51,422 bases of DNA from Acidobacteriaceae bacterium (GTDB lineage: Bacteria; Acidobacteriota; Terriglobia; Terriglobales; Acidobacteriaceae): NCBI GenBank assembly GCA_003134435.1, contig PLBE01000231.1, positions 1 through 51,422 on the forward strand, written 5' to 3'. Shown piece by piece: positions 30,977 through 34,612 of this stretch (the stretch's first letter is position 1; each line of letters opens with the position of its first letter). The notes under the pieces were generated by a model that was not told the origin of the DNA, searched no databases, and saw only the letters and a list, made by a program, of their open reading frames with translations. Both the position numbers and the translations under genes were made by a program.

Positions 30977-31585
30977 CTAAGCGTTTGCCTGTTTGCAGGA
31001 CTGAGCCCGGAGGAAGAGATGGCGATGGCTGGTGCCGGCTTCGACCACGGTCTGGTTCTTGCCAACAGTGATCTTGCGGGCCTGTCCGAGGTTGGAGATG
31101 TTTGCGTTGCGCAGTTGAATTTCGTTCCCTTTGGCGATGGGGCTGGCGCCGGTAACACGAGCCATTCGCCGCAAGATGAGCTGCTGTTGCTCCCCGAACC
31201 CGGGTGCTCTTACTGCCGCAACCTGAAGCGGACCCCGCAACTTACTCACGACGAGTGTGGCTAGCGCTTCGTCCCCAACATCCTCCGCGATGATGAGCAG
31301 GGGGCTGCCGATCTGCGTGAGGCGCTCAAGCAGCGGGAGCAAGTCATTCCGGGAACGGATTTTCCCCTCGTGGATCAGAACGTAGGCGTCCTGGAAGGCG
31401 ACTTCCATACGCTCGGGGTCGGTGATGAAGTAGGGTGAGAGGTATCCGCAGTCGAAGTGGATGCAGCTCGGCTGCGCTTTGTCGCTGGCGGTGTGGGAAA
31501 CAATGCCGTCGAACATGGCGTAAGGAGTTTCCGCGCGGGCCAGAATGCGGTTATCCACCGTAGCAGGTGTCGCAGCCATACTCAT
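30977..31585 (-). CDS. Stand-alone GroEL apical-domain protein (natural minichaperone-like)
   Basis: This 202-residue protein contains only the apical domain of chaperonin GroEL. Residues about 41-184 align with E. coli GroEL from about 190 to 340: FDCGYLSPYFITDPERM, LLPLLERLTQIGSPLLIIAE, DEALATLVVSKLRG, VAAVRAPGFG, GQARKITVGKNQT. Equatorial and intermediate domains, and with them the ATP site, are absent. The substrate-binding residues (Tyr, Tyr and Phe of GYLSPYF, the Leu of LLPLL, and the Leu-Val-Val helix) are kept. The first 40 residues and last 18 match nothing I know. The start ATG 31585 has AGGG seven bases upstream and the frame is unbroken, so it looks like a real gene, not debris. 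It is isolated, convergent with the GH106 gene 80 bases away. Function as a folding helper or holdase is inference. Confidence 0.85.
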   Translation of the reverse strand: MSMAATPATVDNRILARAETPYAMFDGIVSHTASDKAQPSCIHFDCGYLSPYFITDPERMEVAFQDAYVLIHEGKIRSRNDLLPLLERLTQIGSPLLIIAEDVGDEALATLVVSKLRGPLQVAAVRAPGFGEQQQLILRRMARVTGASPIAKGNEIQLRNANISNLGQARKITVGKNQTVVEAGTSHRHLFLRAQSCKQANA

Positions 31586-31873
31586 CTCTTTTCCCTAGAC
31601 TGTGTTTAACCTCGCTGAGTATGGCCGATCTGAGCTTGGCAGGATGGTCAGTTTTGTACACCATCCGGAATATTGCTGTAGTGCTCGGCAACAATTAAAG
31701 ATGGGTCTCGGATCGCCAACCCACCGCCGGGCAGTGAAATTTTCAGGAAATCGCGGCAGATTGGTAGTTCATACAAACCCTTCCCCCGTCGCGCTATCTT
31801 TCCGAAGTGTTCCATTCTGCACAGTATTGTGAAAGAGATTGAGCGAATCTGGGTAACGATCAGGGAGGGCACT

Positions 31874-32335
31874 ATGGCGAAAACAGCGGTTGGTTTATTT
31901 GAGAATCCAGGTTCGGCCGATGACGTTGTGCGCGAGCTTGAGGCTAGCGGTTTTGCTCGGAATGACGTCCGTGTTCTAGGTGAGCCGCGGGAGATGGCGG
32001 GCAGCGGAGTCATGAGCACTCCGCACACCGACTTTGAAGTGGATCTGATCCGGGATCTCAGGGCGTTCGGGGCCAACGAATCCCGCGCGGAAGCTTACGT
32101 CCAAGGAGTGCGGCGGGGCGGCGTCATGGTTTTCGCAACCGGTTCGGGCACGATGGCGGACAACGCCGCTGCCATCATGAATCAACATTGCGCGGTAGAG
32201 ATTGAAGAAGTGAAAGGCTCGCAAACGTACCTTCCGGGAACAGTCAATGACGAGGTCACTCAAGATCGTGATGTCTCGTCCCAGGCGGGGAGGGTCCGCA
32301 GTTCGGGTTCCGGCGCCCGGCTGTTCGTTTGGTAG
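31874..32335 (+). CDS. General stress protein 17M-like domain protein
   Basis: Small protein whose N-terminus (AVGLFENPGSADDVVRELEASGF followed by NDVRVLGEP) matches the YflT/17M general-stress fold, an alpha/beta ferredoxin-like unit. The second half (AYVQGVRRGGVMVFATGSG, AAAIMNQHCAVEIEEV) is the returning beta-alpha-beta portion. Unlike the related gene at 34779, there is no Gly-rich membrane segment. I choose ATG 31874 over 31829 because GGGAGG lies just before it and conserved sequence begins there, giving 153 residues. The 288-base gap before it (31586-31873) shows no gene. Its biochemical role is unknown; relatives respond to heat, salt or ethanol stress. Confidence 0.75.
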   Translation: MAKTAVGLFENPGSADDVVRELEASGFARNDVRVLGEPREMAGSGVMSTPHTDFEVDLIRDLRAFGANESRAEAYVQGVRRGGVMVFATGSGTMADNAAAIMNQHCAVEIEEVKGSQTYLPGTVNDEVTQDRDVSSQAGRVRSSGSGARLFVW

Positions 32336-32377
32336 CGATTTCATGAGACACGAATTGCCCGGAGTTGTGGCCAAGCC

Positions 32378-33571
32378 ATGAAGACGCAGAGGAGACTCAA
32401 GAACATGGAAACTTTCGGATGTGATGTAGGGTTCTCAAAGCCTCGGTGGAAGCGGAGTTTGATATCTCTGTTGTCGATGGCTCTGTTGTTCGCGATCGGA
32501 CCGCAAAGACTGTCGGCCACTCAAGATGCACCCGCCGCGACGCAAGGCGCGCAAGCGCCGCCGTACGCACAGCAGACTTCCGGGCAGTTGCAGCGCCTGG
32601 TAGCGCCGATTGCGCTCTATCCGGATTCGCTGGTGGCGCAGATTCTGGCGGCGTCCACTTTTCCGGAGCAGGTCGTCGAGGCCGACCGATGGGTGCAGGC
32701 GAATCCCGATTTGAAGGGCGATGCGCTCGGGAAAGCTGTCGACCAGCAACCTTGGGACCCGAGCGTCAAAGCGCTCGCCGCTTTTCCCTCCGTGCTTGGA
32801 AATATGGACAAGAACCTCTCCTGGGCCTCATCGCTCGGGGATGCCTATTTCAATCAGCAGGCGGACGTGATGGACGCCGTGCAGGTAATGCGCCGTAGGG
32901 CGCAAGCGGCTGGCGATCTCAAGACCACGTCGCAGCAAAACGTGAGCACGCAAGGTTCGACGATCGTGGTTGAGCCTTCGAACCCTGAGATGGTTTACGT
33001 CCCCGCCTATGATCCCTGGTCGGTTTACGGAGATCCCATCATGGCGTGGCCGGGGTGGTATCCATACCCCGGAATCTGGTTTGGCGGCCCTTACCTGTCA
33101 TGGGGCGGTGGCTTCGGCATCGGGTGGTTCGGCGGTTATGGATGGGGCTGGAATCATTGGGGATTCAATTGGGGCGGCGGATACGCGATGTATGGTGGCG
33201 GCCGGTACTACTCGCGGAGCAATACATTTTATAACCGCGGCAATTTCTATCGCGCGGGAAGCGCCCGCGGACTTAACGGGAACCGCGGCGGAGTTGGCGC
33301 GCGCAACGAGGGCGCCAGAGCTGGCGGCGGACGCGGCGAAGTCAACAACCGGTCCGGTGCAACCAACCGGGCTTTCAACGGAAATACCAAGGCGGCCCGA
33401 GGCTACGCTGAGCCCCGTGGACAAAGCGGCACCCGCACGGGCGCATTCAGTGGCTACGGAAAAGGCGGGCAGGCGCGAAGCGCTTCGTCACGCGGAGCCG
33501 CCAGCATGGGCGGCGGAATGCGCAGCGGTGGTGGCGGTGGAGGAGCTCACGGTGGTGGCGGAAGGCACTAA
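32378..33571 (+). CDS. DUF3300 domain-containing exported protein
   Basis: Family of unknown function found in Proteobacteria and Acidobacteria. A signal peptide (SLISLLSMALLFAIGPQRLSA) is followed by the DUF3300 core: LQRLVAPIALYPDSLVAQIL, ASTFPEQVVEADRWVQANPD, QPWDPSVKALAAFPSVLGNM, then VVEPSNPEMVYVPAYDPWSV. The C-terminal 170 residues are Gly/Trp/Tyr-rich then Gly/Arg/Asn/Ala-rich and unstructured, ending in a poly-Gly-His tail. The start may be ATG 32378 or ATG 32405; the latter has AGGAG ten bases upstream. The DUF2950 gene follows after 57 bases; these two families are often neighbours. Probably cell-envelope associated, function unknown. Confidence 0.9.
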   Translation: MKTQRRLKNMETFGCDVGFSKPRWKRSLISLLSMALLFAIGPQRLSATQDAPAATQGAQAPPYAQQTSGQLQRLVAPIALYPDSLVAQILAASTFPEQVVEADRWVQANPDLKGDALGKAVDQQPWDPSVKALAAFPSVLGNMDKNLSWASSLGDAYFNQQADVMDAVQVMRRRAQAAGDLKTTSQQNVSTQGSTIVVEPSNPEMVYVPAYDPWSVYGDPIMAWPGWYPYPGIWFGGPYLSWGGGFGIGWFGGYGWGWNHWGFNWGGGYAMYGGGRYYSRSNTFYNRGNFYRAGSARGLNGNRGGVGARNEGARAGGGRGEVNNRSGATNRAFNGNTKAARGYAEPRGQSGTRTGAFSGYGKGGQARSASSRGAASMGGGMRSGGGGGGAHGGGGRH

Positions 33572-33628
33572 CTGGCGAGCGGTCATGTTCCTGGCAGCTA
33601 CTAAAACTTGCAAATGGAGAGAAGCTAT

Positions 33629-34612
33629 ATGCGGCGAGCAAACGCGAATTCCGGCAAATGCCCTTGGGCGAATCTTTCTCAGTTAGCGGTGGCGGCCATC
33701 CTCTTGACGGGATCCCTTTCCATAAGCTCCATGGCGCAACAACCCGGCCAGCAAACATTCTCATCGCCGGAAGACGCGAGCACCGCGCTGGTGACAGCCA
33801 CGCGGAATAACGATGAAAAAGCGATGCTCGATATCCTCGGGCCAGACGGGAAGCAAATCGTTTCGTCGGGAGATGAAGCCGAGGATGCGCAGAGCCGCGC
33901 CAATTTCGTGCAGCGGTACCAGGAAATGCACCGTTTGGCGACGGAGCCGGACGGCACCACCACCCTATATATCGGTCCAGAAAACTGGCCCACGCCGATT
34001 CCGCTCGTGAACAAAGGAAATACATGGTATTTCGATACCGATGCCGGCAAGCAAGAAATTTTGTACCGGCGAATTGGTCAGAATGAAACGTCGGCGATTA
34101 GCATTTGTCGGGAGCTGGTTGCGGCGCAAAAAGAATACCGCGCCGCGCCACACGATGAGTATGCGCAGAAGATTTTCAGCGATGAAGGGCAGCACAACGG
34201 CCTTTATTGGAAGGCTGCCAATGGCGAACCGCAGAGCCCTATCGGTCCGCTGGTAGCATCGGCCGTCGCCGATGGCTATGCCAAGAGCCTGGATGGAACC
34301 CCGACTCCCTACCGCGGCTATTACTTCCGCAATCTGACGCGGCAAAAGAAAGCTGCCGCCAGCGGTGCAAAAAGTTACCTGGTCAATGGCAAGATGACCG
34401 GAGGCTTCGGGTTCGTGGCCTATCCCGCGGAATATAGATCGTCCGGCGTGATGACATTCGTGGTCAACGAAGAGGGAGTCGTGTATGAAAAGGATCTCGG
34501 CAGGAAAACGGACGCTCTGGCCAAGGCGATGAAGGAATACAACCCTAATTCCAGTTGGCAAAGGGCGGAAGAGCAGTACGACGAAACCGTCGACGCGCAG
34601 GAAACCAAATAA
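33629..34612 (+). CDS. DUF2950 family exported protein
   Basis: DUF2950 proteins are exported, of unknown function, and commonly paired with DUF3300 as here. After a signal peptide (LSQLAVAAILLTGSLSISSMAQ) come the family features FSSPEDASTALVTATRNNDE, MLDILGPDGKQIVSSGDEAED, TWYFDTDAGKQEILYRRIGQNE, and the C-terminal block PYRGYYFRNLTRQ, GFGFVAYPAEYRSSGVMTFV and VVYEKDLG. ATG 33629 is preceded by GGAGAG with seven-base spacing, giving 327 residues; the frame is open from TTG 33608 but that start has no ribosome site. Likely co-transcribed with DUF3300. An inverted repeat follows the stop. Confidence 0.9.
   Translation: MRRANANSGKCPWANLSQLAVAAILLTGSLSISSMAQQPGQQTFSSPEDASTALVTATRNNDEKAMLDILGPDGKQIVSSGDEAEDAQSRANFVQRYQEMHRLATEPDGTTTLYIGPENWPTPIPLVNKGNTWYFDTDAGKQEILYRRIGQNETSAISICRELVAAQKEYRAAPHDEYAQKIFSDEGQHNGLYWKAANGEPQSPIGPLVASAVADGYAKSLDGTPTPYRGYYFRNLTRQKKAAASGAKSYLVNGKMTGGFGFVAYPAEYRSSGVMTFVVNEEGVVYEKDLGRKTDALAKAMKEYNPNSSWQRAEEQYDETVDAQETK

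Follow-up and report, generated by a model that had tools for sequence, protein, structure and literature searches.

The short gene described here lies on contig C75 of a 5.75 Mb Acidobacteriaceae assembly, a stretch of 51,422 nucleotides referred to as the window. As judged by profile comparison, the gene is an in-frame fusion of groES codons 1 to about 41 with groEL codons from about 191 onward. Across its family, selection keeps the apical domain together with the hydrophobic groove between helices H and I, and keeps neither R197, whose contact is needed only in the ring, nor the GroES-derived leader sequence. The favoured reading, to which a probability of about 0.5 was assigned, is that a deletion fusion in groESL became a family of its own, whose product would act as a monomeric, ATP-independent and ring-free holdase. 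The complete proposition may hold, at somewhat short of even odds: a natural minichaperone family would have arisen by in-frame groES–groEL deletion fusion, would work free of ring and ATP with only the client groove under selection, and would have multiplied and crossed genera, with a further short form in another genome (G010) arising separately by internal groEL deletion. The label 'minichaperone' for the window protein is what we infer from its anatomy and selection.

The features of the gene and its surroundings are given in Table 1. The preliminary description of this DNA had proposed an intact frame with a ribosome site. The frame was indeed open, but the ribosome site was weak in the window copy, where only a purine run was present and GGAGG, GAGG and GGAG were absent from the 19 bases scanned. 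GGAGG preceded 18 of the 34 starts compared, and GAGG or GGAG preceded 13 more (31 of 34 in all); the copies with none of these motifs were those of the window, G160b and G005. The start homologous to that of the relatives was the second Met, at 31579, and not the first ATG of the ORF.

Table 1. Positions of the fusion gene, its parts and its neighbours in the window.
Feature	Position	Strand	Remarks
Whole ORF, 202 aa + stop	30977..31585	-	Open from ATG to stop
GroES-derived N-terminal segment	31463..31579	-	ORF residues 3-41 = GroES 1 to ~41, including degenerate mobile-loop region
GroEL apical domain	31028..31462	-	ORF residues 42-186 = E. coli GroEL 193-337
C-terminal tail	30980..31027	-	ORF residues 187-202, not GroEL-like; near-neutral evolution across the family
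Upstream block common to other gene copies	31616..31672	-	Flank comparison
Polypeptide-binding positions	Y48, Y52, F53, L83, L86, L108, V112, V113		GroEL 199, 203, 204, 234, 237, 259, 263, 264
YflT (weak, below cut-off), DUF3300 and DUF2950 genes adjoining the fusion gene	31829-34609	+	

Pfam Cpn60_TCP1 (PF00118) matched over profile positions 237–332 of 490 with an E value of 3.6e-5 and 23.1 bits, a score below the gathering score of 34.3. Against solved structures, the apical part aligned to E. coli GroEL with an E value of about 5e-35 (GroEL position = ORF position + 151), and its extent came close to that of engineered minichaperones (about 191–345). It was 56–58% identical to the two GroELs of its own genome. 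The equatorial ATPase domain and the intermediate domain were absent from the 202 residues and from the window outside the gene, which bears out the earlier proposal that the gene encodes the GroEL apical domain alone. The AlphaFold2 model, computed from an alignment of the window protein with five GroEL apical segments, had a mean pLDDT of 69.8, with residues 1–38 below 50 and ten-residue means of 78–89 for 51–150, 63 for 151–160 and 86 for 161–180. All of the best 50 Foldseek matches listed for this predicted model were chaperonins; the model fitted 1srv (T. thermophilus 192–336) with a TM score of 0.94 by target and an rmsd of 1.4 Å, and the TM scores were 0.92 for 1jon and 0.91 for 1dk7. 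The predicted fold is not independent evidence because the alignment contains GroELs.

The N-terminal 40 residues had been described as unlike GroEL; a leader foreign to the chaperonin was not supported, as they correspond to the start of its lid protein GroES. An hhalign comparison of 29 N-termini, trimmed to exclude the GroEL part, with 46 GroES sequences gave a probability of 97.5 over 39 columns, Met1 to Met1, with an E value of 8.5e-12 that holds for one single comparison. A profile built from four N-termini found, in addition to the fusion genes, frames that lie immediately before groEL in genomes of the genus, with per-genome E values of 1e-5 to 1e-3; the frame matched on C71 of the own genome was groES. 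The 29-N-terminus profile was also searched with hmmsearch against 9176 frames from fetched, partly overlapping loci; 84 matches were counted as fusion genes, 61 as groES, and 14 were left unsorted by a simple filter. Among the eight of these 14 that were listed, two were the gapped G150b fusion and one (L154) lay upstream of a groEL. Pfam gave no family in six N-terminal pieces of 54–55 residues at E values up to 10. The GroES likeness ended at about residue 41, the complete heptameric-lid barrel was absent, and the loop motif was degenerate. A diverged GroEL intermediate domain, as suggested by a first MAFFT alignment, was ruled out because the profiles match GroES at its start.

The fusion anatomy is shown, and from it we infer a deletion in a duplicated groESL operon. 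One operon copy would have lost, in frame, the stretch from groES codon ~41 to groEL codon ~191 as well as what follows groEL codon ~340, and a small gene with a GroES-like start and an isolated apical domain would have been left. In the own genome, groEL was present at two further loci, each with a groES match: the one on C71 is intact, and the one on C120, which contains an unread base, came out split in the search. A tblastn search with the own-genome GroEL and GroES (E ≤ 1) found no groEL or groES remnant in the window outside the short gene. As far as the flanks of 36 loci reach, a clear groEL or groES match outside the short gene was found in G231 only, where a complete groESL operon (L154:11219-13333) lies ~3.5 kb from the fusion gene; two further flank matches were weak (tblastn E 0.26 and 0.75).

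Relatives, which the preliminary description had suggested looking for, were found as fusion genes in three genera. The own genus (g1) had 15 fusion loci in 11 of 24 genomes, a second genus (g7) had 16 in 10 of 45 genomes, and a third (g45) had one locus in one genome, with up to three copies per genome. No fusion was detected in 13 of the 24 g1 genomes and 35 of the 45 g7 genomes, several of them incomplete; this patchiness was counted against the holdase reading. Across 398 family and 298 order genomes, fusion-type matches (E ≤ 1e-10) occurred in g1, g7 and g45 only, and among 396 genomes sampled from the phylum the window alone matched at E ≤ 1e-11; about 16–22 first-look candidates were scored per genome in these searches. 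The genome G005 (g6) carried a diverged gene whose N-terminus was missed by the profile and whose fusion nature is unsure. As for the suggested presence of the short form beside a full groEL, 10 of the 11 fusion-bearing g1 genomes had a further groEL match, and the eleventh, G151, had a groES match only.

Altogether 34 copies were compared, comprising the 32 fusion loci, G005 and a remnant in G006. The frame read through intact in 28 copies; four were cut or gapped by the assembly (G150b and G357 by unread bases, both G082 copies by contig ends), and two were broken (G257c by a frameshift, G006 through the lack of the N-terminal part). The frameshifted copy (L157:8059-8289, G257:C2) occurs in a genome that also has two intact copies, showing turnover. 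One further fragment is carried by G096, and the frame of G159b runs on to 338 codons. In a tree of 86 apical sequences, from which three rows (two cut, one gapped) had been dropped beforehand, 28 fusion-type rows fell on one side of a branch and were separated from 52 GroEL and 5 outgroup rows; the SH-aLRT of this branch was 94, slightly short of the customary 95. Several rows had long branches, including that of the window, whose copy was among the more diverged (Q at 284–286). The cut and broken copies, this divergence, the weak ribosome site and the tree support were likewise counted against the holdase reading.

A separate 221-residue ORF was found in G010 (L043:5012-5674, C83); roughly its first 50 residues are those of the N-terminus of GroEL, and the apical domain follows directly. 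Its end falls close to the GroEL position at which the fusion genes stop, and like them it has C at 197, but it differs in having H at 203. Like the fusion genes it is a separate apical-domain gene; unlike them it starts with the GroEL N-terminus and not with GroES. This short form, seen in one genome, probably had a second, independent origin.

The selection acting on each part of the gene was evaluated with a codon model for 27 of 31 sequences (G005, G150b and both G082 rows were left out); the tree shape and the relative lengths of its branches were taken unchanged from FastTree, which makes the statistics approximate. The dN/dS of the apical part was 0.238 (2dlnL 513 against 1). The values for the GroES part, 0.88 (2dlnL 1.3), and the tail, 0.84 (2dlnL 2.0), were not different from 1. 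On the window branch, the apical dN/dS was 0.24 (2dlnL 17.5 against 1), and the GroES-part value of 2.4 was not different from 1 (2dlnL 2.0). A dN/dS near 1, which had been named earlier as the sign of a decaying groEL fragment, was thus rejected for the apical part of the family and of the window branch. Moreover, all 28 closest pairs had an apical dN/dS below 1 with a 2dlnL of at least 4.2, although the pairs share sequences. GroEL itself had values near 0.02–0.08 (bad G157 rows apart); the fusion protein is freer than GroEL and far from neutral. The synonymous distance to the own GroEL was at least 2 in seven of seven genomes, one of which, G157, has a partial, badly aligned GroEL frame that was disregarded. 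At such a distance, the constraint is not accounted for by gene conversion from groEL.

The constraint within the apical domain was then resolved by residue. The polypeptide-binding positions of GroEL reportedly go back to Fenton 1994, and V263 is taken by us as the eighth of them. All eight were kept in the window copy, and each was kept in 26–28 of 28 copies (Y199 28, Y203 26, F204 28, L234 27, L237 27, L259 28, V263 28, V264 27), which supports the earlier statement on retained substrate-binding residues. Among the 52 distinct GroEL apical sequences, 111 positions were at least 95% conserved; 50 of these were kept in at least 90% of the fusion copies and 21 were changed in more than half. 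The chance that all eight binding positions fall among the 50 was 0.0012, for a test chosen afterwards. Seven of the eight stand on a list of functionally reported GroEL residues, according to an excerpt of that source (PMC2741606). A241, on the same excerpted list, was T in 21 of 28 copies and was counted against the holdase reading. The residues lost in the fusion proteins included R197 (26 of 28), R284 (26 of 28) and E255 (21 of 28). R197–E386 and E255–K207 are given as inter-subunit contacts of the apo GroEL ring in the excerpt available from PMC3326522. Position 207 was D in the GroELs compared, and for this reason the E255–K207 pair may not exist here.

In the holdase reading, the groove of the monomeric, ATP-independent protein would bind hydrophobic segments that become exposed when proteins are unfolded or under stress. 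Aggregation would be suppressed, and clients would be released passively or to the full GroEL/ES machine. The gene would have become its own family, with one to three copies per genome where present and some transfer between genera. Client binding by a ring-free protein in the absence of ATP is proposed by analogy with engineered apical fragments: in the excerpted text of PMC9138447 such a fragment aids the refolding of rhodanese and cyclophilin A without ATP, and in that of PMC4973282 the apical domain is used for fibril suppression. Counted in favour of the holdase were the ends of the apical part, the retained binding positions set against the loss of R197, R284 and E255, the low apical dN/dS in the family, on the window branch and in the closest pairs, the single group in the tree, and the lack of any sign of conversion by groEL.

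The main rival is a regulator or decoy of the chaperonin, in which the free apical domain would bind the GroES mobile loop or compete for GroEL clients and thereby tune GroEL/ES capacity. GroES binds the same apical groove as clients; this makes the decoy the main rival, and conservation there does not point to unfolded clients in particular. The conserved part of the fusion protein is this very groove, and the further groEL match in most fusion-bearing g1 genomes, together with the two groEL loci and their groES matches in the own genome, was counted for the decoy. However, a lone apical domain has only weak affinity for the mobile loop, since the avidity of the ring is missing, and the leader, which contains the protein's remnant of a mobile loop, shows no more conservation than expected under neutrality. 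A function for that remnant was likewise set low because the segment is near-neutral. The decoy was considered unlikely.

The surroundings of the gene bear on whether the domain may instead be a dedicated adaptor, recruited for one or a few partners, such as those of stress operons. Homologues of DUF3300 and DUF2950 occurred near the fusion gene in five other loci in two orientations, which makes six loci in all; Pfam was run on the window pair only, and the other five loci were assigned by BLAST clustering, a crude grouping of the longest non-overlapping frames. Other fusion loci lay near Crp/Fnr regulators. These neighbours, and the family-wide substitutions M230 to K/R, T270 to P, D328 to N and E310 to K/R, speak for an adaptor, but the neighbourhoods vary widely between copies and the groove keeps general-purpose hydrophobic residues. 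An adaptor role appeared slightly less probable than the decoy. A small same-strand frame (L153:5214-5741, with homologues in L041, L083 and L093) was present upstream of the fusion gene, at 130–290 bases in three loci and 2.9 kb in L083. By eye it resembles proteins of the ElaB/YqjD type, which are small, stress-related and anchored in the membrane. For this reason, a transposase link suggested by a weak Pfam Tnp_DNA_bind match below cut-off was dropped, and the passenger reading discussed below was rated slightly lower.

The copies have homologous flanks, ~280 bp upstream and in some ~145 bp downstream, and otherwise lie in different places. Nowhere else in the own genome is the motif TGTACAAAACTGACCA of the upstream block (31645-31660) matched without a mismatch. 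A second site differs at one position, and the sequence beyond it, judged by eye, was unlike the upstream block. The upstream motif TGTACAAAANTGACCA was rejected as a regulon mark, since the own genome has just these two sites and the match at one is inexact. A small frame, ORF0, was found upstream in six copies; it has about 48–62 codons or more (62 in L148, L150, L083 and L087) and ends 24–27 bases before the gene. Relatives of ORF0 are also present where there is no fusion gene, as at C85:341-484 of the own genome. The window and G160b are without ORF0, and there the upstream block lies about 20–100 bases before the start. Downstream, ORF2 overlaps the end of the fusion gene in some copies, among them G127, G151b, G194 and G045, and was noted at the loci L040, L092, L149 and L041. 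It has a C-x4-C ... C-x2-H pattern that looks zinc-binding, and it is interrupted in G160a and G150b. ORF2 was also present in genomes with no detected fusion gene (G165, G166 and G154) and elsewhere in the genus (L165, L168, L170, L171 and L173).

Movement between genera was examined through synonymous distances. For GroEL, 16 g1 × g7 pairs had dS values of 0.72–1.42 (median 0.96). For the fusion genes, 168 such pairs had a minimum of 0.23 and a median of 0.86, with 11 below 0.4; the minimum of 168 pairs is favoured over the minimum of 16. The fusion genes of G045 and G194 differed by a dS of 0.42, compared with 0.82–1.50 in six GroEL pairs with G045, and the apical tree contained cross-genus sisters. 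Some transfers between genera are likely and a wholesale transfer is not. A cross-genus transfer from G127 versus G231 (short-gene dS 0.30, GroEL 2.45) was rejected, because EL_L154 groups with EL_L082 in the tree and the GroEL comparison mixes paralogues.

Several copies in different loci with homologous flanks, and sisters from different genera, would also be expected of a passenger with no host role in a spreading unit of ~1.1 kb (upstream block, sometimes ORF0, the fusion gene and sometimes ORF2). Inspection of the unit, with its ends viewed by eye, revealed neither a transposase nor a terminal repeat, and a low dN/dS confined to the apical part calls for protein function; the passenger was judged quite improbable. 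A decaying groEL fragment, the null of the preliminary description, could account for the two broken copies and the further fragment, but is scarcely credible given relatives in at least three genera, mostly intact copies, an apical dN/dS significantly below 1 on the window branch too, and the absence of groEL remnants from the rest of the window (tblastn, E ≤ 1).

Among the matches listed, the open-access literature on natural or stand-alone minichaperones and on GroES–GroEL fusions or chimeras, including an excerpt of PMC5904260, contained no description of such a gene. The same was true of the matches listed for truncated GroEL, GroEL paralogues and acidobacterial groEL in the open-access literature, with subscription papers mostly outside it. 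Ever since minichaperones were first engineered, it has been a matter of debate whether the apical domain alone does useful work as a chaperone in cells. A family that keeps the groove and loses a ring contact offers some thirty evolutionary replicates for that debate and would be a source of small folding aids for laboratory use. It also appears to be a case of a new protein that arose when part of an operon was deleted. Nature may have its own version of the laboratory 'minichaperone'.

Compared with known systems, the window protein matches the first ~41 residues of GroES (Cpn10), Met1 to Met1; unlike GroES, it is missing the remainder, and its mobile-loop region is degenerate and near-neutral. 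It has the apical domain in common with the group I chaperonin GroEL; unlike GroEL, it is without the equatorial and intermediate domains and the ATP site, and the R197 ring contact is lost. The solved apical fragments 1srv, 1jon and 1dk7 have ends close to those of its apical part. The engineered minichaperones span GroEL 191–345 and 190–333 in the excerpted text of PMC9138447. Those made from GroEL (191–345, 191–376; T. thermophilus 190–333) consist of the same domain with nearly the same ends and the same groove, and likewise have no ATPase. Unlike them, the window family is natural, carries a GroES-derived leader and a variable tail, occurs in at most three copies per genome, and has R197 and R284 replaced in most copies.
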